This document shows positions 49,450 through 60,777 of a stretch of 64,000 nt of DNA, one piece after another (within the stretch, counting starts at the first letter, position 1; every line of letters starts with the position of its first letter). The position numbers were made by a program, and so were the translations under genes. The notes below the pieces were generated by a model. The model worked only from the letters and a program-made list of their open reading frames with translations. It was not told where the DNA came from and did no database searches. This DNA comes from Alphaproteobacteria bacterium (GTDB lineage: Bacteria > Pseudomonadota > Alphaproteobacteria > UBA7985 > JAUIBT01): assembly GCA_030428255.1 (NCBI GenBank), contig JAUIBT010000005.1, positions 64,308-128,307 of the forward strand, read 5' to 3'.

Positions 49450-50877
49450 TTAGAGGTTCGACAGCTCGTAAATGGCGGTCATCTCTTCGAACACCTCCGG
49501 CGTCAGCTCACCGGTCTGCGCCAAGCCGTGCATCTCCTGAAACTCGACGATCGCCAGGCGGTAGGCATCGTCAGCAATACCGTCTTGCGGTCCTGGGTCT
49601 ATATCCAGGCCCGCCAACATGGTCTCGACCGTTGCGATGCTCTCTGGTGTCTCCAGAGGGTTGCCCGAAAAGGGGTTGAACAAATAGAGCAAGACCGCCA
49701 GCACAAGCACGCCGACCGCGATTGATCCAGCGGGCATGAGCCATTTAGAGGACAAGGAGAGGCCAGCAAAGGGGCCGCGATTCAGGCCTGGCGATATCAA
49801 GCTTTGACCGGCGCCCAGAGCACCGCTACCCGGTTGGCCGGTGTAGGTGTCATCACCCAGGTCATCGACATAACCTTGAGAGTCGTAATTCGAGCTGGCG
49901 TAAGCTTGTGACCCATAGTCCTGCGCGCCGTAGCCCTGAGAGTCATAAGCCTGAGAATTGTAAGCCTGCGAGTCGAAGCTTTGGGTATCGTCGTAGCTCT
50001 GAGTGTAGTCGCTCGCGTAGCCAGTATCATAGGACTGGCTTCCCAAGCTCGGGTCATGGAAGCCGCCATCAGAACCGGCTAGATCGGCTGTCCGGTTGGC
50101 GAAGCGCGAGCGCCATCCAGACGCCGGGCGCCCCTCGCCAGTGGCAGCTTGGCTTGTCGGCGTGCCGTAACCCTGGGAGTCGTAACCTTGGGAATCGTAG
50201 CCCTGGGAGTCGTAACCCTGGGAGTCGTAACTCTGGGAGTCATAGCCAGCGTTCTCGAAGCCTGAGGTCTCAAAGCCCTTATCAGAATAGCCCTGATCAG
50301 AATAGCCCTGATCAGAATAGCTCTGGCTATCGTAACTCTGTTCGCCATAGGCTTGATCGCCATAGGTCGCCTCGCCGTACGCGGTGTCACCGTATCCGTC
50401 GCCGTAGTCGCCACCTGCGCCCGCTTGATAGCTGTCATCTAGGCCTGCAGCGTCGTAGTCCTGGGCCTCAAAGCCAGCCTCGCCGTTTGCAGGCTCTGGC
50501 TTTGAGCGTGAAAACGATAGTGATTCGCTGAAACGCGAAGCGATGCGTTCGCGCAAGCTACTTGGCTCTTCGTATGCTTGGTCATGACCATAGGGGTCGC
50601 TGGCGGCATCGACGCCCGGCTCATAGCCTTGCTCGCCTTCCAGCTGGTAGTCTGAATTTGGATCGAAGCTGGCGACCTCGTCGCGCGGGGCAGGGGCCTC
50701 GTCGAAAGCATCGCTTGAGTAGACCTTCGGGCCGTCCTCGCCGCTTGCTGAGCTGCGCAGTGGGTTGGCAGCGGCTGGCTCAAAGCCAAAGGAGCCGGCG
50801 CCCGATCCAGAGGGGCGCCCAAAGCTGCTGCCGTATCGTTTGCTATCGCTGCTCATGCCGTTTCCTACTGCTGTCAT
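49450..50877 (-). CDS. low-complexity Tyr/Gly/Ser/Gln-rich membrane protein with peptidoglycan-binding-like C-terminus
   Basis: The 475-residue protein has no signal peptide. Residues 1-370 are disordered and rich in Tyr, Gly, Ser, Gln and Asp, with repeats such as YDSQG (five in a row near 212-236), YSDQG and QAYGEQSYDS; Tyr is spaced every four to seven residues. One hydrophobic helix follows (residues 379-400, WLMPAGSIAVGVLVLAVLLYLF). Residues 415-472 resemble a PG_binding_1 module (ATVETMLAGLDIDPGPQDGIADDAY). Lacking a signal peptide, the N-terminus should be cytoplasmic and the C-terminal domain periplasmic. The ATG at 50877 has AGGAAGG upstream; the frame opens 60 codons earlier without a ribosome-binding site. 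Function unknown; a Tyr-rich prion-like region anchored at the envelope is unusual. Confidence 0.9.
   Translation of the reverse strand: MTAVGNGMSSDSKRYGSSFGRPSGSGAGSFGFEPAAANPLRSSASGEDGPKVYSSDAFDEAPAPRDEVASFDPNSDYQLEGEQGYEPGVDAASDPYGHDQAYEEPSSLRERIASRFSESLSFSRSKPEPANGEAGFEAQDYDAAGLDDSYQAGAGGDYGDGYGDTAYGEATYGDQAYGEQSYDSQSYSDQGYSDQGYSDKGFETSGFENAGYDSQSYDSQGYDSQGYDSQGYDSQGYGTPTSQAATGEGRPASGWRSRFANRTADLAGSDGGFHDPSLGSQSYDTGYASDYTQSYDDTQSFDSQAYNSQAYDSQGYGAQDYGSQAYASSNYDSQGYVDDLGDDTYTGQPGSGALGAGQSLISPGLNRGPFAGLSLSSKWLMPAGSIAVGVLVLAVLLYLFNPFSGNPLETPESIATVETMLAGLDIDPGPQDGIADDAYRLAIVEFQEMHGLAQTGELTPEVFEEMTAIYELSNL
50171..50245. repeat. 15-bp tandem repeat encoding YDSQG, five copies
   Basis: Five adjacent in-frame units (CCCTGGGAGTCGTAA on the plus strand, with single changes in copies two and five) encode YDSQG repeats of the low-complexity region. 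Confidence 0.95.
50276..50320. repeat. 15-bp tandem repeat encoding YSDQG, three copies
   Basis: CCCTGATCAGAATAG occurs twice perfectly and once as CCCTTATCAGAATAG, a second independent in-frame array in the same gene. Confidence 0.93.
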
Positions 50878-51190: not shown

Positions 51191-51265
51191 TGGGGTATAG
51201 CCAAGTGGTAAGGCAGCGGTTTTTGGTACCGCCATTCCCTGGTTCGAATCCAGGTACCCCAGCCA
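51191..51265 (+). tRNA. tRNA-Gln (TTG)
   Basis: The acceptor arms TGGGGTA and TACCCCA pair fully, followed by discriminator G and an encoded CCA. The anticodon stem GCGGT/ACCGC holds the loop TTTTGGT, so the anticodon is TTG (Gln, CAA/CAG codons). The T arm is CCTGG-TTCGAAT-CCAGG. The 75-base length, including CCA, is normal. Confidence 0.97.
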
Positions 51266-51933
51266 TCTCTTCCTTTTAAGATTGTAGACGTTAAGGGTTT
51301 TGCTCTTTTGAGGGCGCAATCACTGAGCGATACTTTGTGGCCCTGGTCGACACGCGGCTGTGGCCGCATGCGCCTGTCGCTGATTTCGTGCGATTATCCA
51401 GGGTGATTATCCAGGGTGATTATCTGGGGCGTTCATCTGGGGCGATTTCCTCGCGCTACGCGATCGGGTGCAAAATTCATCTATAACAATTTCGATGCGC
51501 GATCATTGGCTACAGACCGCCCGCTGCGCTGCGGTGTGATCACAAAAACACCCGGTTATAGATCGGAGTTTGCTGCAAATTGCCTCGCGGATCGCAAGAA
51601 CCAATCGGTTCTTTGACCGCTCGCGCGGATTCACCCTAAGCGTTCTGCTTCCACAATTTCTGCGCGATTTGGGACGCTGCCCGCCGAAAAACTGCAATTT
51701 ACAAACCGATCCTGCAAAATTGGGCCTTGAGCACCCGCTTTAACAGGAATTGGTGGCTTTGCCGCGCGCCCAATGCCAACATAAACCACATTTTTCTATA
51801 ACCAGCCAGAGGTGGCACCGGTGGCATTTTGCTTTGCGATTTTGCGGGCCAAAACCAACCAGTGCCACTGACATCTGGCGGTCATCCGCAGTGCGGATTT
51901 TTTATTAAGAGCGGTTCCTGAGTGAAGGTCATT
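51266..51933. other. long non-coding gap before the giant DUF11 gene
   Basis: About 670 bases separate the tRNA from the DUF11 gene. The stretch holds a 13-bp tandem array at 51392-51443 and no credible open frame. It becomes more AT-rich from about 51500. It probably contains the promoter of the giant gene; no clear boxes were seen, and no copy of the tRNA 3' end was noticed that would mark an integration site. Confidence 0.55.
51392..51443. repeat. 13-bp tandem repeat, four copies
   Basis: GATTATCCAGGGT occurs twice perfectly and then as GATTATCTGGGGC and GTTCATCTGGGGC, in the gap before the DUF11 gene. Confidence 0.94.
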
Positions 51934-54900
51934 ATGCATCAAGTTGAAACGGACACGCCCCAGGCTCATACGACTGCAGCCCAGTTGGCTGCCAAGCTCG
52001 GCGCTGGGCGTTACGCACTGGCCGGACTGTTTGGCCTTTCACATGAGCGCCGCGCTTCCAACCCGACACTGCCCAAGCCAACCAAGAGTGATATGAAAAA
52101 ACCGTCTATGTTACCGGCCTCTATTCGTAAAGCCGCTGCGGCCCTGTCCTTTGCTCTTCTAGCTGGCATGGGACTGGCGACAGGCGCCCAGGCGCAAACA
52201 CTGGTGGAAAACTGTGCGACCATCACATCATCGTCGCCGGTTGACGGAACGCCGCTGAATAACACCGACTGTGCGAACCTCACTCTGCAGCCGTCTGCGG
52301 ATCTCAGCCTGACCAAGACGGTGAACTTTCCCAACGCGGCGGTGGGCTCAACGGTGACCTTCACCTTGACGCTGACCAACGGCGGCCCCTCGACGGCGAC
52401 GGGCGTGGTCGTGCATGATCCTGAGCCGACCGGCTTCACATTCGGTCTGGTGACTCCGGATCTTTTGGGTGTCTGGGATCCTGTTGGTGACAACTGGACC
52501 ATTGCCACCTTGGCATCTGGAGCCTCGACCAGCTTGACCATCGAGGCTGTAGTCGATCCGGTTGGCGACTATACCAACCGCGCCGAAGTGACGGTGTCTG
52601 TTGTGCCCGACCCTGACTCGACGCCGAACAACGGTGTCACAACAGAAGACGACTATGCAGAGGCCACGGTGACCCCTGCCGGTGGTCCGCCGCCTGTGAA
52701 CCCGCCGCCCAGCGGTGGTGTGCTCAGCATTACCAAGTCTGCTAACCCGACTTTGGGCGACATCGATGGGGACTTCATGCCTGAGGCCACCTTTACCGTG
52801 ACCATTTCCAACACTGGCACGGGTTCGGCCACCTATACCGCGACCGATACGGCCAATCTGCTGCCCGCAGGGGTCACAGTCTCAGAGGTGAGCTCGCTGG
52901 CCGTGGCGACCAACGGCAGCAACGATCCGACCCTCAATCTCAACCCCGCATTCGATGGCAGCAGCGATACGGCTTTGTTGGCGGGACCGCAGACCATCGA
53001 CGCCAACGAGACGCATACCTTTACCATTGTTGTCGAGTACGCGATTGATACGGCTACGGTGAACTATGCCAACTTGACCTGTACCGGCGCGCCCAACTTC
53101 GGCTTTTATAACCAAGCTGAGTTGACTTTCACCGACAAGGCTGTGATCGCCACCAACGTTGCATCTAGCGTCGACCGGACCTTCCTGACCGGCGGACTCT
53201 TGTTCCCCAGCAATCCGGACCTACAGGCCTTCTCCATCCCTGCAGGCAACGAGCGCGGACTTGTGATTCACGCGGGTTTCGAGCGCGAGGGCAATTTGGC
53301 GCTGTTGCTCAACTTTTACACCGGTGGAAACGTGCCGGAAGTGACCGTTACGGTGACCGGACCCGGTGGCTCGATCGCCCGCCCCACCACCTTCTCGTTC
53401 GCGCGTCAGGTGAATACGCTTCTTGGAATCCCGACCTTTGGCCTGGCCAAGGAGCTGCATACAGCAGTGTTTGACGAAACGGATATCGCGACCCTTATGG
53501 GCGGGAACACCGGCGGAAACGTCGCAATCACACTCAGCTTCCCGAACACAAACCTTGTTCTGGGCGATGAAACCTATGTCGTGGCAACGGCTATGAACAA
53601 CGTCGATGCTGGCGGTTCGGGGCTGCAAGTGGCGGCTCAAGAGACCGGGGCTTGGGCCAGTGTCGCGGGCGATTACACTATCGCGTCGGGCCCTTTCGCC
53701 GTTGGCACCGAAACAACTGACGCAGGCGATGCGGTGCTGGTCAATGGCCTGAGCCTGGCCGGCTTGGAGCAGGGCAGCTTCGGCTACCTAACGCCAGCGG
53801 GCTATACCAATATTGACGGCAACGCCAATGCCAACTCCTTGAGTGTGTTCGGTTTGCTGGAATTCGATTCTGAACCCAGCGGTATGTCGACCAACACTTT
53901 CTTTACCAACGGCGCGCAGTCCAGCGTGTCGATCCAATCGGCCATGCCAAATGCTACCCCAGCCTATGAAGGCGAGATGTCGGTGGTCACCGCGCAGGTC
54001 GCCTCGAACGTTACGAGTGCCAGCGCTTGTGTTAGCGGCAATTTCATCGACCTTGAGCTTGAGAAAACCGCCGACACTTTGACCGCTGTTCCAGGCGGAA
54101 CCGTCAATTTCACCGTGACGGTGACCAACGCTGGCGGCCTCGATGCCACTGGCGTCGCGGTGACTGACCTGCTGCCTGCTGGCTTTACCTTGCTCAGTTC
54201 AGCGGTCAGCCAGGGCAGCTATGCGACCGGAAACGGCGTGTGGACCGTCGGAACCTTGGCACCCACAGCCAGCGCGACCTTGACGCTTGAGGCAGGGGTC
54301 AACGCTGGACAGCCGATCACGGCCTATATCAATTTGGCGGAGGTAACGGCCGCCAACGAGGTCGATGTGGATTCCACGCCAAACAACGGCGTTGATACCG
54401 ACAATGACGGCATTGTCGTCGATGACCCAGGCGACGAGGATGACGGCGATGGCGTGCAAATCACCGTTGATGGCATCGTGATCAGCAAGGCGGTATCGCC
54501 CGTGGCGCTCGACGCAGCGACTTACGGCAAGGTGCGCTACGAATTTACGGTCTCGAACAATTCTGGTACCGAGACACTGAGCTATGACTTAGTCGATACC
54601 ATCGACTTTGGTCCCGGCCTGCCCGCCTCGGTAACCGGCATTTTGGTGCGGCAGAGCGATCCCGGCGTTGTTGTTGCGACGCCCACCTTGGACGACGGCG
54701 TGGCGACGGTCTTGGTGGCCTCAGAGACGCTCGCGCCCAACGCGACAGAGGTTTGGGAGCTGCTGGTAGATCTGGGTACGATACCCTCAACCCCGACGAA
54801 TCGTGCTGCGCTGACCGCCTGTGATCCTGGCAATCCAACCGCGAATACTGGCCTGTACAACTCCGCCGATTTGGCCCCTGGCGGTTCTATTCCTCCCGGT

Positions 54901-57900
54901 GCGGGGGCGCTGGGGCTGAATGCCCAGGCCTGCCCGACCGGCAACAACCGGGGTCTGCTTATCACCAAGCAAGCCTCAGCCGTCGTATCGGCTTTGCCAA
55001 ACGGCGACCTGCGCGCGGTCTACAGCGTGTTGGTCTACAACACCGGCCTGGCCACCTCTTATACGTTGACCGATAATTTCCTGTTTGACGCAAACTTCAC
55101 CGTGACCGACATGCAGATCCTGGCCAATACCAGCGGTTTGGTGATCACCCCCACATTCAACGGCGCGGATCCAGACGGATTCACCGTCGGCGGCGCCATC
55201 GGGGATGCAGATACGCACCTATTCCTGGTTCAGGTTGATGTCAGCCATGCTGGCAGCACGGCGGCGGCCTTGGCGGACGTTGGCGCTTGCGATGCCACCA
55301 GCCCAGAACCGCTTGTCGGCTTGACCAACGCGGCGACCCTCATCGGCCCCGGTCCTTCGGACGTGCCGATCACGGCCATGGCCTGCCCGACCGGTGATGG
55401 CGTGGGCGGAACCATATCCTTTGACAAGGACGTGGTGTCATTGGTCAACGTCGATGCGGATACGGTCGAGGTTGTTTATAGCCTGACGGTCAGCAATACC
55501 ACGGCCAGCAACGTCACCTATGACATCGCTGACGCCTTTAATTTTGATCCAGACTTTGCCGTTGTGCCTGGCTCGATCAATGTCTCCACGGCCCCAGGTG
55601 GCTTGCTGCTGACGCCTGGCTTCGACGGCATCGCGACCTCAAGCCCGACAATTGCATCGGGTCAAGTCATTGCCGGCGGCGATACGCACACCTACACCAT
55701 TTCACTGCAGGTTGATTACAACGGTCCGAATCTTGCGGATCTTGACGCGGAGATTGCGGGCTGTGACCCAACAGATCCGCAGCCTGGCACAGGCCTATTC
55801 AACCTTGGCGTCTTGACGGTCAACGGCATTCCGGTCAGCGATGAGGCCTGCCCGGGCAACGTTGATCTCAGGTTTAGCAAGCAAGCCTCCTTCGTGGGCT
55901 ATGAAGGCAATGACCGTTTCAAGGTTGGCTATGAAATTCAGGTTCAAAATCTCAGCGGCGCATCGGTGGTCTATGATTTGGCCGATACACCCGATTTTGA
56001 AACCGGGCTTGTTATCGCCTCGGCCACCCTGTCTTTGAACGGCGGGCCGCAATCGTCGGTCGCCGCCCTGACCAGCGGCACTCCCAGCACTCTGGCGACA
56101 GGGGTCACTCTCATAGATGGCGCCACGGATACCTACTATTTAGAGGTCATTATTGACGCCTCAGCCTTGGCGACGGTTCAAGCACAGTTCTCGGCCTTTG
56201 CCACCTGTAATCCCTCTTCGCCCTTGGCTGGAACCGGCGCCTATAACTCAGCGGTCTTCACCGTCGACGACCAGCCCTATGCACCGGTCGAAGCCTGTCC
56301 TGACGGCATCAATCTGCCGGTCTTCGCCACCAAGCTCGCCTCGGCGATTGCCAATATGGGCGGCGGCAGACTGCGGGTCATTTACGACGTTCAAGTCTAC
56401 AACCCGGGATCGAGCGCGATCACTTATGACCTGGTTGATGCTTTGGACCTGGATGGAGACTTCAGCATTGATGCGATCAATGTGGTCGATGCGACTGTGT
56501 TTCCCGCGACCGCCGTCGTGACGGCCAATGGCTTCACCCATACCAGCGTTTCTTTGGCGAGTGGAGCGACAAATACCTATCGGGTCGAGGTCCTGGTGCA
56601 GCATGCCAGCGGGCTCGAGGCCACGGCCATCACCGATGCAGTCGCCTGTGATCCCGCCGATCCTGTGCCCGCTACGGGTCTCTACAACGGCGCGACGGTC
56701 ACCGGCCCCAACGGCGTGCCCATTACAGTGGAGGCTTGTCCGCCAGCCTTGGTGCTGACCAAGACCGGCTTGTCAGCGGTCCAGTCTGCCACGGACTCGG
56801 TTGATGTTGTCTATCAAATTACAGTGGAAAATAGGAGCGCCCAGTCCCAGCAGTACTATCTGCTCGACGCCTTTGGTTTTGGGACGGACTTCTCGGCAAC
56901 CACCTCTACCACCGTCAGCGTCACACCGGGCAGCGTGACCCTGAATGGCGGCTTTAACGGTGTCACCGATGTCTTCGTGACGGCGCATGACGGGGCCAGC
57001 CCACCGAACCCCGTCCTTCAGACCATTGCGGGGAATTCGACCCACACCTTTACCATTTCAACAGTGGTTGCCTACCCTGCCGGCGGCAATGCTGAAGCTG
57101 ATGTGGCGCTGTGTAACCCCTCCAACCCAACGCCTGGCACGGGTCTTTACAATGGGGCGGCCTTGTTTGTGAACGGTATCCCGACCCTAGAGGATGCCTG
57201 TCCCAACTTGTCAGAATTGGCGCTGTACAAAGTGGCAAACCCGACGGCCAACTTGCAGCAAGGCGACACTGTTTCTTACACCTTTATGATCGAGAATAAC
57301 GCCAGTTCACCGGTCGATACACTGACGTTGAACGATCCCTTGGTGACAAATCTGTCCTGCGCTGCATCCTCCTTGGGTGGTACAGGCTTCACCTGGACCT
57401 ACAGCGGCAGCCAAGCTAGCTCGACCTCAGGCGCTTTGGCCATCGGTGATCGGGTCATCTGTACGGCGGTCTATACCGTAACGGCAGGCGATGTGACCAC
57501 AGGATCCATCACCAACACCGCGGCTGCGACGGCCGTTGACGGCGGTGGCGCGACTCTGAACGCTGGCGCCTCGGCGACTGTCACCACCCAGGCCTCCGGT
57601 GCGGGTGGGCTGATCAGCGTTACCAAGTCGGTGACGGGCTTCGACGATATCGTGACCGCCAATGGTCGCGTCGAGGTGGGCGAGACAGTCGATTACGAGA
57701 TCCGCGTGGTCAACTCTGGTCCCACTCCATTGACCAACGTTCAGGTCAACGATTCTCTGATCGCGGGCTTGAGCTGTAGCCCGATCGTCGGCTCCGGTCT
57801 TGCGTCTGGGGCGACCATGGTCTGTACGGGTAGCCATACCGTGACCGCGGGCGATTTTGCTGTCGCCGCCGCCAACTTTGGCGACCTGGTCAACACCGCA

Positions 57901-60777
57901 ACGGCGACCGGTCAAGTCCCGGGCGGCGCCACGGTCAGCGACAGCGACCAGGCTGTCATATCCCTGGACCCTGCCGGGATTACGCCAGCCATCGACCTCA
58001 GCAAGTATCTGATCGGTTTCACAGATAGTGACGGCGACTCAGGCTATTCGGCGGGTGACGTTCTGGTCTATGGCTTCACCATAACCAACACCGGTGGGGA
58101 CACGCTGACCAATGTCACCTTGACTGACTCCCTGCTGGCAGGCGCGCCCATCAGTTGTAGCACAGCGTTGCCGACCACCTTGGCACCTTTGGCGTCGATC
58201 ACCTGTAGCGCGTCCTACACCGTTGATGCGACGGATATCACCACCCAAGCCGGGACCGGGTTCGAGGTGCTGGTTAACACTGCTACTGCAACAGGAACAT
58301 CGTTGAACGACCCAGGCCTGACTGTCCTGGACATCGAAGATCTGACCCTGTTCATCTTCCCGAACTTGTTGGATTACGGTGACTTGCCCGACAGCTACGA
58401 CGGTGTTGCGGACTCGAGCGATGACGCCGCGCACCGCCGAGATGCTGGTCTGTTCATGGGAGCGGTCGCTCCCGATGAAGAAGCTGGCAAGCAAGCGCCC
58501 TTGGATGGCACCGGCGATGACGTGACCGGCGTTGACGACGAGGACGCCATCAATCCGGCAGTGCCCTTGTCCTTGGCCTCCAGCAGCTACAGCTTGGACG
58601 TGACGGTTACAACGCCGTTGGTCGGTGCCTGTACCGATCAAAATACCTTCACCCTGGTCGGCTGGATTGACTTCAACAGCGATGGTGTATTCCAAGCCAA
58701 CGAGCGCTCGGAGCTGTTTGGCCTTGTTGCAAACATTGCAGCAGGTTCGGCAACCCTGTCCTGGCCGACCCTACCAGGGCTGACCGCGCCAGCAGGCGGA
58801 GCCTATGCGGTGCGCTTGCGTCTTTATGAAGGAACCATAGTCAACCCGCAGCCGATCGACTTCGGCGGCTGTGGTGAGGTCGAGGACGACTACATCACCT
58901 CCAGTGATCCGGACTTCGGTGATGCGGCCAGCAGCTATGAGGGTGGCACGCCAGCCTCGCATACGCCGGGCGGTCTCTATTTGGGTGCCGTGGCTCCGGA
59001 CGGCGAAGCAGCGCCCCAGCCCAACGGCAGCCTGACGGGTGACGACCTGGCCGGCGTGGACGATGAGGACGGCATCAATGCCGCGACCTTCCTGCCCTAT
59101 AGTGTCGGTAGCGATCTCTATTCCTTGGAAATCATCACGGCACAGGTGCCCGCCCAAGGCGGTGTCGTGGTGGGCTGTATGGACTTCAATGACAACGGCA
59201 GCTTTGAAGCCGCTGAAATTGACTTCACCCCTGTAGCAGGCGGGCAAATCGCGACCACTTTGAGCTGGTCGGGCCTCAATGCTTTGCCCGCAACCACGCC
59301 AGCCAGTGGCTCTTACACCTTGCGCTTGCGGATCTTCGAGCGCCAAGCGGTCGAGACGGTTCCAGGCACGATTGATCCAGCTTTGGTGGTCTGTAACGGC
59401 CCAGGCGGCGTCGGTGAGGTCGAAGACCACGCCTTGCTGGCTGTGCTGCCACAGGTGATCATCGCGCGGAAGGCAGCCGATGTGACGACGGTGCAAGTGG
59501 GTGACTTCATCCAGTGGACGCTGGAGTTCGAAAACACTCTGGCGGCCCCCTTGAACAACGTCACTCTGCGCGACTGGTTGCCCGCTGGTGTGGCCTATGT
59601 GGCGGGCTCCGCGCGCTTGCAGCGTATTGGCATCGATCCTGCGCCGCTGGCCGCTGAGCCGACCATTGCCGGTGGCTCGGTCTTGACCTGGGCGCCTTAC
59701 GACTTCCAGGCTGCGGGCTCGCCCGGTGACACGATCCAGATCAGCATCTTGACCACCGTTGGTACGGTGGCCGTGGGTGCAACGCTGGAGAACCGCGACC
59801 AGGCGCTGACCGCTGGGGGCTTGCCCTTGTCCAACATCGGACGCGCTTTCGTGACCGTTGAAGCCAGCGGCGTCTTTGACTGCTCTGATATCATCGGTAC
59901 GGTGTTCGAGGACAAGAACGCCAACGGCTATCAAGACCAGGGCGAAGGCGGTCTGGCGGGCGTCAATATCTACACCGCCCGCGGATTGAAGATCACCGTG
60001 GATCGCTATGGCCGCTATCACGTTCCTTGTGGTGCAACGCCCGACGAGCGCGGACAGAACTTCATCTTGAAGCTGCACGAGCAAACCTTGCCGCTGGGCT
60101 GCCAGCTCACCACCGAGAATCCGCGCGTGGTGCGCCTGACGCCTGGCAAGCTGACCAAGGCCAACTTTGGTGCAAGTTGTGGCAAGACCGTATCTGTCTT
60201 CTTGTGTGACGATGTCTTTGTGGCCGGATCGACCCAGGTGCTGGACACTTGGCGACCTCAAGTCGGCCAGATCGTGGATATGATGAAGCGGGCGCCTGTC
60301 AGCTTGAACATCACCCATGCGACGGCGGGTGACTTGACCTTGGCCCAGCGTCGTTTGGCGCGCCTCAGCCGCTATCTGCGCCAGGCGTCGGCGAGCGGGC
60401 AGTTCCAATCGACTGTCAGCACGGGTGTTACCAACGATGTCTCGCGCTGTCCGCAGAAGGCTCCCGAGCCCGTGCCGATCGAGGTCTGTGACGTGCCGAC
60501 GCGCTATGCGATCAAGTCCATGATTTCCTACTGTCAAGGACTGCGCGATCTGCTGGTGCAGGAGTACTACAGCTATCAGCCGCTTGGAACGACGGTGGAG
60601 AACTACAACACCTATGTGCGTAGCGTTGAGGCCTGGAAGGCGGACTATAAGGACGTGATTGCCAATCAGAACCGCTGGTCGCGGCAACGCATCCAAGATG
60701 GCTACCTGCGTCTGACGCAGCGCTATCACCAGCTGATGACCTACCGCAACACCTACGTGGTGCCGGGCGGTCGCTAG
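51934..60777 (+). CDS. giant secreted DUF11/GEVED repeat surface protein
   Basis: The product is about 2947 residues. A 53-residue extension precedes a signal peptide (residues 54-87, MKKPSM then AAAALSFALLAGMGLATG, AQA). Module order: a DUF11 domain (about 122-248), a proline-rich linker, an anti-DUF11-like domain (266-410), a unique region (410-700), DUF11 (704-840), six tandem repeats of 143-160 residues (850-1762), each starting with a K-x-A-S type strand and holding a paired ACDP...ACP motif. Three further DUF11-like domains follow (1763-2140), then two GEVED-type modules (2147-2505; DYGDLPDSYDG, GEVEDDY), another DUF11 (2508-2646), an SdrD_B-like fold (GTVFEDKNANGYQDQGEGGL, 2649-2748) and a basic C-terminal domain (2752-2947) recalling OmpA-like proteins. 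A surface adhesin or matrix role is inferred. The ATG at 51934 (AAGG upstream), GTG at 51922 and ATG at 52093 are possible starts. Confidence 0.92.
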   Translation: MHQVETDTPQAHTTAAQLAAKLGAGRYALAGLFGLSHERRASNPTLPKPTKSDMKKPSMLPASIRKAAAALSFALLAGMGLATGAQAQTLVENCATITSSSPVDGTPLNNTDCANLTLQPSADLSLTKTVNFPNAAVGSTVTFTLTLTNGGPSTATGVVVHDPEPTGFTFGLVTPDLLGVWDPVGDNWTIATLASGASTSLTIEAVVDPVGDYTNRAEVTVSVVPDPDSTPNNGVTTEDDYAEATVTPAGGPPPVNPPPSGGVLSITKSANPTLGDIDGDFMPEATFTVTISNTGTGSATYTATDTANLLPAGVTVSEVSSLAVATNGSNDPTLNLNPAFDGSSDTALLAGPQTIDANETHTFTIVVEYAIDTATVNYANLTCTGAPNFGFYNQAELTFTDKAVIATNVASSVDRTFLTGGLLFPSNPDLQAFSIPAGNERGLVIHAGFEREGNLALLLNFYTGGNVPEVTVTVTGPGGSIARPTTFSFARQVNTLLGIPTFGLAKELHTAVFDETDIATLMGGNTGGNVAITLSFPNTNLVLGDETYVVATAMNNVDAGGSGLQVAAQETGAWASVAGDYTIASGPFAVGTETTDAGDAVLVNGLSLAGLEQGSFGYLTPAGYTNIDGNANANSLSVFGLLEFDSEPSGMSTNTFFTNGAQSSVSIQSAMPNATPAYEGEMSVVTAQVASNVTSASACVSGNFIDLELEKTADTLTAVPGGTVNFTVTVTNAGGLDATGVAVTDLLPAGFTLLSSAVSQGSYATGNGVWTVGTLAPTASATLTLEAGVNAGQPITAYINLAEVTAANEVDVDSTPNNGVDTDNDGIVVDDPGDEDDGDGVQITVDGIVISKAVSPVALDAATYGKVRYEFTVSNNSGTETLSYDLVDTIDFGPGLPASVTGILVRQSDPGVVVATPTLDDGVATVLVASETLAPNATEVWELLVDLGTIPSTPTNRAALTACDPGNPTANTGLYNSADLAPGGSIPPGAGALGLNAQACPTGNNRGLLITKQASAVVSALPNGDLRAVYSVLVYNTGLATSYTLTDNFLFDANFTVTDMQILANTSGLVITPTFNGADPDGFTVGGAIGDADTHLFLVQVDVSHAGSTAAALADVGACDATSPEPLVGLTNAATLIGPGPSDVPITAMACPTGDGVGGTISFDKDVVSLVNVDADTVEVVYSLTVSNTTASNVTYDIADAFNFDPDFAVVPGSINVSTAPGGLLLTPGFDGIATSSPTIASGQVIAGGDTHTYTISLQVDYNGPNLADLDAEIAGCDPTDPQPGTGLFNLGVLTVNGIPVSDEACPGNVDLRFSKQASFVGYEGNDRFKVGYEIQVQNLSGASVVYDLADTPDFETGLVIASATLSLNGGPQSSVAALTSGTPSTLATGVTLIDGATDTYYLEVIIDASALATVQAQFSAFATCNPSSPLAGTGAYNSAVFTVDDQPYAPVEACPDGINLPVFATKLASAIANMGGGRLRVIYDVQVYNPGSSAITYDLVDALDLDGDFSIDAINVVDATVFPATAVVTANGFTHTSVSLASGATNTYRVEVLVQHASGLEATAITDAVACDPADPVPATGLYNGATVTGPNGVPITVEACPPALVLTKTGLSAVQSATDSVDVVYQITVENRSAQSQQYYLLDAFGFGTDFSATTSTTVSVTPGSVTLNGGFNGVTDVFVTAHDGASPPNPVLQTIAGNSTHTFTISTVVAYPAGGNAEADVALCNPSNPTPGTGLYNGAALFVNGIPTLEDACPNLSELALYKVANPTANLQQGDTVSYTFMIENNASSPVDTLTLNDPLVTNLSCAASSLGGTGFTWTYSGSQASSTSGALAIGDRVICTAVYTVTAGDVTTGSITNTAAATAVDGGGATLNAGASATVTTQASGAGGLISVTKSVTGFDDIVTANGRVEVGETVDYEIRVVNSGPTPLTNVQVNDSLIAGLSCSPIVGSGLASGATMVCTGSHTVTAGDFAVAAANFGDLVNTATATGQVPGGATVSDSDQAVISLDPAGITPAIDLSKYLIGFTDSDGDSGYSAGDVLVYGFTITNTGGDTLTNVTLTDSLLAGAPISCSTALPTTLAPLASITCSASYTVDATDITTQAGTGFEVLVNTATATGTSLNDPGLTVLDIEDLTLFIFPNLLDYGDLPDSYDGVADSSDDAAHRRDAGLFMGAVAPDEEAGKQAPLDGTGDDVTGVDDEDAINPAVPLSLASSSYSLDVTVTTPLVGACTDQNTFTLVGWIDFNSDGVFQANERSELFGLVANIAAGSATLSWPTLPGLTAPAGGAYAVRLRLYEGTIVNPQPIDFGGCGEVEDDYITSSDPDFGDAASSYEGGTPASHTPGGLYLGAVAPDGEAAPQPNGSLTGDDLAGVDDEDGINAATFLPYSVGSDLYSLEIITAQVPAQGGVVVGCMDFNDNGSFEAAEIDFTPVAGGQIATTLSWSGLNALPATTPASGSYTLRLRIFERQAVETVPGTIDPALVVCNGPGGVGEVEDHALLAVLPQVIIARKAADVTTVQVGDFIQWTLEFENTLAAPLNNVTLRDWLPAGVAYVAGSARLQRIGIDPAPLAAEPTIAGGSVLTWAPYDFQAAGSPGDTIQISILTTVGTVAVGATLENRDQALTAGGLPLSNIGRAFVTVEASGVFDCSDIIGTVFEDKNANGYQDQGEGGLAGVNIYTARGLKITVDRYGRYHVPCGATPDERGQNFILKLHEQTLPLGCQLTTENPRVVRLTPGKLTKANFGASCGKTVSVFLCDDVFVAGSTQVLDTWRPQVGQIVDMMKRAPVSLNITHATAGDLTLAQRRLARLSRYLRQASASGQFQSTVSTGVTNDVSRCPQKAPEPVPIEVCDVPTRYAIKSMISYCQGLRDLLVQEYYSYQPLGTTVENYNTYVRSVEAWKADYKDVIANQNRWSRQRIQDGYLRLTQRYHQLMTYRNTYVVPGGR

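Follow-up and report, generated by a model that had tools for sequence, protein, structure and literature searches.

Gene and Protein Organization

The window, a 64,000-nucleotide stretch of alphaproteobacterial DNA, carries next to a tRNA-Gln gene an open reading frame for a bitopic protein, whose parts are listed in Table 1. The protein was described in the earlier note as a disordered tyrosine-rich arm followed by one membrane helix and a PG_binding_1 module, and composition, hydropathy, Pfam and AlphaFold all confirm this layout. The start has to be moved, as position 50877, given previously, is an upstream in-frame ATG whose additional residues are not conserved, and the MSSD start at 50856 is conserved in the congeners. 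The 5′ end of the gene falls within a near-tandem duplication (about 22 bp, at 50837-50877), which generates these two in-frame ATGs, only the second of which is conserved.

Table 1. Coordinates of the gene, its encoded segments and the neighbouring tRNA gene (window numbering)
Feature	Coordinates	Strand	Basis
Gene for the 468-residue bitopic protein (start MSSD)	49450..50856	-	ORF call; start common to both congeners
Conserved N-terminal motif, residues 1-47 (MSSD.KRYGSSFGRPS.SGA.SFGFEPA.NPLR...GPKVYS)	50716..50856	-	73-94% identity between the three species
Basic motif 2, residues 99-118 (PSSLRERIASRFSESLSFSR region)	50503..50562	-	65-80% identity between the three species, gap-free
Tyr block 1, residues 119-242, acidic Y-x-x-Q-G/S pentads	50131..50502	-	Aromatic residues five apart
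Basic motif 3, residues 243-261 (RPASGWRSRFANRTADLAG)	50074..50130	-	84-89% identity between the three species
Tyr block 2, residues 262-354	49795..50073	-	16-45% identity between species
Single membrane helix, residues 372-393	49678..49743	-	Hydropathy; N-terminus predicted cytoplasmic
Periplasmic PG_binding_1 domain	49453..49668 (Pfam match 49480-49644)	-	Profile, AlphaFold, structure matches
tRNA-Gln (TTG), conserved divergent neighbour marking the locus	51191..51265	+	Also in relatives

The hydrophobic segment at residues 372-393 is the only one that exceeds 1.6 on the Kyte-Doolittle scale. Two basic residues precede it and none occur among the 30 residues that follow, and an N-in topology is predicted by the positive-inside rule, in agreement with the cytoplasmic N-terminus proposed earlier. 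The remainder of the protein is occupied by a PG_binding_1 domain (PF01471, residues 405-459, E=2.6e-9, 37.6 bits against a cut-off of 23), and Pfam recognizes nothing else after the helix, in particular no Sel1 or TPR repeats. When modelled in isolation by AlphaFold the domain forms three helices with a pLDDT of 94, and it superimposes on peptidoglycan-binding domains in the PDB with TM-scores of 0.84 (CtpB) and 0.80 (SleB); the corresponding Foldseek E-values are above 0.001 because the domain is short. Profile match and modelled fold together support the periplasmic, wall-binding-like domain of the original description. The fold is that of the PG_binding_1 domains of CtpB, SltB3 and SleB, but here the domain sits on a bitopic protein in which no enzymatic domain was detected. 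NCBIfam contains no applicable family, and a Pfam 'PMG' match to the protein is compositional.

Beyond the tRNA-Gln gene lies a gene (51922-60777, forward strand) for a secreted-type protein of 2951 residues, in which five DUF11 stretches are accompanied by DUF7507 and GEVED domains. Both congeners (L023, L024) have a DUF11-type gene at the corresponding position, and none was seen in the two other families of the order that were compared. The interval between tRNA-Gln and the DUF11 gene includes a 13-bp direct repeat, GATTATCCAGGGT, in 2.5 perfect copies (51392-51424). Elsewhere, at L017 (G006:C119), DUF11 and PG_binding_1 occur in one protein (frame residues about 560-839), which ends in many His/Trp/Lys repeats (KYKSSWHxKxxSxxH and similar).

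The Disordered Arm and Its Aromatic Lattice

The arm (residues 1-369) is of low complexity and is modelled by AlphaFold with low confidence throughout, as expected of a disordered region. Its composition is dominated by Ser (16.3%), Gly (14.9%), Asp (11.4%), Ala (10.6%), Tyr (9.5%) and Gln (7.3%), with Phe contributing a further 3.8%. In Tyr content the ORF ranks first of the 48 non-overlapping window frames that reach 150 residues, for which the mean is 2.2% (s.d. 1.4%). The arm is strongly acidic, with 61 Asp and Glu against 17 Lys and Arg, that is a net charge of -44 or -0.12 per residue. Charge alternates along the arm, where acidic Tyr blocks (17 Tyr and a net charge of -23 in block 1, 12 Tyr and -14 in block 2) are interspersed with conserved islands that are basic or neutral.

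The 50 aromatic residues of the arm, 35 of them Tyr, are arranged in a lattice in which gaps between successive aromatics peak at five (24 of 49 in the window species, 28 of 56 and 29 of 56 in its two congeners) and few spacings of ten occur in any of the three species. Over the whole arm the aromatic residues are more evenly spaced than in shuffled sequences (p=0.003 in the window species, 0.001-0.003 across the three). The effect is strongest in Tyr block 1 (p=0.0002 in the window species and at most 0.0004 in all three); block 2 is not significant in the window species (p=0.38) and reaches p=0.02 in both congeners. The pentads that make up the lattice differ between species, the commonest being YDSQG in the window species, Y(S/T/G)DQ(G/S) and FGGQT in congener G001, and YQDQG, YGQSD and FSQSD in congener G002. 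The earlier note had suggested looking in homologues for Tyr spacing that is kept while the sequence drifts, and this pattern is what the two congeners display: across the three species, composition and Tyr/Phe spacing persist while the sequence of the arm turns over. These statements rest on spacing and codon diversity; Tyr retention in aligned columns was set aside because the aligner favours Tyr-Tyr pairs. Within the class such an arrangement is uncommon, as a four-fold Tyr-x-x-Gln-x pattern at the DNA level is present in only 9 of 385 sampled genomes. Congener G002 also holds two other Tyr-pentad repeats (YTQQGYSQQG, YPQQG), one at G002:C81:5168-5254 and one at G002:C62:13854-13940 (L183), the latter forming the C-terminus of a secreted lipoprotein-like protein.

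Embedded within the arm are three conserved motifs (Table 1). Identity between the three species is 73-93% in the helix region and 88-96% in the wall domain; it is 16-45%, with many gaps, in the Tyr blocks (24-38% in block 1). Since dS is near saturation, dN/dS values are rough; they are 0.01-0.05 for the wall domain, 0.05-0.12 for the motifs where dS can be estimated (about 0.1 for the N-terminal motif, 0.05-0.09 for motif 3) and 0.2-0.9 for the Tyr blocks. A full-length AlphaFold model, built with three sequences and taken as a hint only (pLDDT 41), predicts short helices at residues 101-112 in motif 2 and 248-256 in motif 3. Apart from these helices, of 12 and 9 residues, the low-confidence model of the Gly/Ser/Tyr/Asp-rich arm offers nothing that resembles a coiled-coil-rich region. 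Motif 2 was considered as a strong amphipathic membrane helix and rejected, its hydrophobic moment (0.16-0.24) being below that of other stretches of the arm.

Conservation of the Locus within the Order

The locus was compared in 11 genomes of the order, which fall into three families: f1, which contains the window genus, f2 and f3. A scan of contigs returned the two congeners and one match unlike a relative (L025). In every family the gene is divergent from tRNA-Gln(TTG), which bounds it in the window, in both congeners, in f2 (L028, L083, L084, L085) and in f3 (L026, L027). On its other side the gene is convergent with ispE in G002, f2 and f3, with ispE followed by a TPR gene in f3, G002 and f2 locus L028. 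In the genome of the window itself grpE adjoins the gene and ispE lies on another contig.

The proteins encoded at this position share their C-terminal part and differ in what precedes it. Those of f3 consist of little beyond the helix and the wall domain, their frame of 110 codons leaving almost no cytoplasmic part; a conserved GTG is likely to be their start. In f2 the arm is about 400 residues long and contains conserved islands of its own, and it is Tyr-poor and has no Tyr lattice. The wall domains of f1 and f3 group in a tree (support 96/91), whereas that of f2 is on a long branch and f2 is placed by synteny. Judged by sequence, the core of membrane helix and PG_binding_1 domain is orthologous across the order and resides in a conserved slot. 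As the arm is Tyr-poor in f2 and nearly missing in f3, the Tyr-rich arm is a recent, genus-level feature on an older core. It had been argued earlier that homologues which lack the Tyr-rich region with no effect would speak against a condensate; the first half of this is found here, in syntenic homologues with almost no arm (f3) or a different one (f2), and the membrane-plus-wall core therefore does not need the Tyr arm.

The Same Slot across the Class

Outside the order, several of the best matches adjoin ispE (G025, G026, G050), and further PG_binding genes are present in the slot in G125, G077, G110 and, in a short form, G083. Among 20 ispE-to-tRNA-Gln intervals chosen as wide enough for a gene, eight contain a PG_binding gene, and several of the others contain genes with a W-S-V-K-G type N-terminus in which PG_binding was not detected. 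In G047 a short gene for a membrane helix and PG_binding domain is kept beside tRNA-Gln. The long forms in the slot combine a membrane helix, Sel1 repeats and PG_binding_1, and most also have the W-S-V-K-G N-terminus, so that, coiled-coil length apart, they have the published layout of PodJ. The N-terminal motif of these locus proteins (WSVKG...A..AGL..G.W) is one that we take to be that of PodJ.

This motif was found in 38 of 144 genomes of the class, the best copy being within 10 kb of ispE in 16 and away from it in 22. Larger PodJ-like proteins are often encoded elsewhere, so that the PodJ-like group resides in this slot but is not confined to it. In G026:C45, G125:C68, G137:C2, G104:C4 and G113:C60 the interval between ispE and tRNA-Gln contains a run of three to five genes or frames with a PodJ-type N-terminus; most of these genes are short, and they have the appearance of a cluster of small paralogues. 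A search of plasmids with one slot protein returned only generic Sel1/TPR-type repeat proteins.

Comparison with Known Scaffolds

PopZ is a disordered, acidic polar hub of the Alphaproteobacteria. Unlike the window protein it has no membrane helix or wall domain, and PopZ was rejected as an explanation, as PF10691 has no match in the genome and a Caulobacter control is positive. The closer parallel is PodJ, a polar scaffold of Caulobacter and other Alphaproteobacteria that joins a large, partly disordered scaffolding part in the cytoplasm to a single membrane helix and, on the periplasmic side, to repeats and a peptidoglycan-binding domain, that forms condensates, and whose homologs have disordered regions of variable sequence (PMC9684454, PMC8980812). 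PodJ is further characterized by its polar position and by recruiting PleC. The window protein likewise has a disordered region, predicted to be cytoplasmic, a single helix and a C-terminal, predicted periplasmic PG-binding domain. The view that no described bacterial system has this architecture must therefore be given up, as PodJ matches it in outline and PodJ-like genes occupy the slot elsewhere in the class. The open-access literature searched describes no membrane protein of bacteria whose arm is Tyr-rich and FUS-like.

The differences from PodJ are nevertheless considerable, as the window protein has no PodJ-type N-terminus, coiled coils or Sel1/TPR repeats, and its arm is built from Tyr-rich pentads where the disordered region of PodJ has an acidic block beside a basic block. 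The PodJ-type N-terminal motif was not found in the protein or in the whole order (best E=0.035, partial). Nor was a canonical PodJ located at another site, either in the genome or in the order, as a full-length query matched only Sel1 and PG_binding pieces. With N-terminus, coiled coils and Sel1 repeats missing, the protein would be a remodelled relative, not a PodJ.

Alternative Explanations

One alternative is that the Tyr lattice acts alone, as a bacterial counterpart of FUS that drives homotypic phase separation at the inner face of the membrane while tethered to the wall. The many evenly spaced aromatics speak for it, as dispersed aromatic residues raise the phase-separation propensity of prion-like domains (PMC11820118), and so does the ability of PodJ to condense (PMC9684454). 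The likeness to FUS-type proteins that was drawn in the earlier note stands where it concerns evenly dispersed Tyr in Gly/Ser/Gln-rich sequence and fails where it concerns charge: the charged fraction of prion-like domains of the FUS/hnRNPA1 type is 0.02-0.1 (PMC11820118), and that of the arm is 0.21, with the strong net negative charge given above, in a protein that is membrane-anchored and bacterial. A higher net charge per residue lowers phase-separation propensity (PMC11820118), and orthologs within the order either lack the arm or have a different one. Taken together these points make the lattice unlikely to act by itself.

A second alternative treats the arm as neutral or nearly neutral low-complexity expansion, in which only the helix and wall domain are functional and the Tyr blocks are filler grown by slippage between a few motifs. 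The DNA of the arm contains 15-bp tandem arrays in all three species, from which it follows that slippage contributes to the Tyr blocks; the low identity, many gaps and dN/dS of 0.2-0.9 of these blocks, together with the armless orthologs of f3, point the same way. On the other side, the 15-mers encoding the pentads are nearly all distinct (22 of 24 in the window species, 25 of 28 and 29 of 29 in the congeners) and Tyr codons are mixed (TAC:TAT 22:13, 18:14 and 18:16), yet a spacing of five is found in all three species, and the motifs inside the arm are conserved. The lattice is good evidence of selection, though not conclusive, because slippage can also restore a period, and we regard pure expansion as rather improbable.

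Comparable doubt attaches to a third alternative, that an unrelated PG_binding_1 protein entered the PodJ-like slot by chance and has no tie to PodJ in origin or role. PG_binding_1 domains are common, and the genome that contains the window has 16 matches with E-values up to 0.1, among which the generic PF01471 profile ranks the window protein only third; the class-level tree of PG_binding domains is poorly resolved, which leaves synteny as the ground for descent from a PodJ-like gene; and the protein has neither the PodJ N-terminus nor Sel1 repeats. Set against this, slot, orientation and the order of helix and wall domain are the same in f1, f2, f3 and several other families, the short forms of G083 and G047 included. 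A domain profile built from the class locus also ranks the window protein first among the PG_binding proteins of its own genome (48.5 vs 39.6 bits), a rank that is supportive and not decisive because PG_binding domains from outside the locus in other genomes score higher still. Chance entry accordingly seems a rather improbable origin.

Tyr clusters also occur in BY-kinases, and the arm might be a substrate in which a bacterial tyrosine kinase modifies Y-D/S-x-Q clusters, switching charge and assembly. Acidic residues close to most of the presumed cytoplasmic Tyr would speak for this role, no kinase gene adjoins the gene, and the role is very improbable.

A Candidate PodJ-like Scaffold and Its Significance

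The explanation that we favour, with moderate confidence, is that the protein is a remodelled, PodJ-like bitopic envelope scaffold, placed by its wall domain and binding several partners through its arm. Since the gene occupies the slot that PodJ-like proteins hold in relatives, it probably encodes a PodJ-like scaffold with a rebuilt inner half. In such a scaffold the wall domain would bind the wall and hold the protein at one place in the envelope, be it the pole, the division site or another, and the acidic arm would recruit partners multivalently. The three conserved, mostly basic motifs could be specific docking sites, and the Tyr/Phe lattice may supply weak and sequence-tolerant stickers through which partners, and perhaps also the protein, would be concentrated at the inner face of the membrane. 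Condensation is plausible; given the strong acidity of the arm, assembly would more probably be heterotypic, involving basic or arginine-rich partners, than a matter of self-condensation alone. Against the PodJ-like scaffold reading stands family f3, which by its gene structure manages with almost no cytoplasmic arm.

A bolder form of the PodJ-like reading, in which a sticker domain with a Tyr lattice replaced the PodJ-type cytoplasmic half in one genus and gave rise to a wall-tethered condensate held by aromatic stickers, is doubtful. If true, it would mean that a single locus had naturally exchanged its mode of assembly, since PodJ relies on coiled coils together with a charged disordered region; the orthologs of f2, whose arm is Tyr-poor, and those of f3, which have almost no arm, would be natural controls.

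The locus presents a regularly spaced aromatic lattice kept through sequence turnover, which is uncommon in the class sample. More generally, one alphaproteobacterial slot holds orthologous or near-orthologous wall-tethered proteins with widely differing cytoplasmic parts, ranging from a coiled-coil scaffold, accompanied by Sel1 repeats on the outer side, through a Tyr-lattice arm and a Tyr-poor arm to almost nothing. Owing to this variation, the role of the disordered arm, and whether stickers can replace coiled coils, could be tested by swapping arms between relatives.
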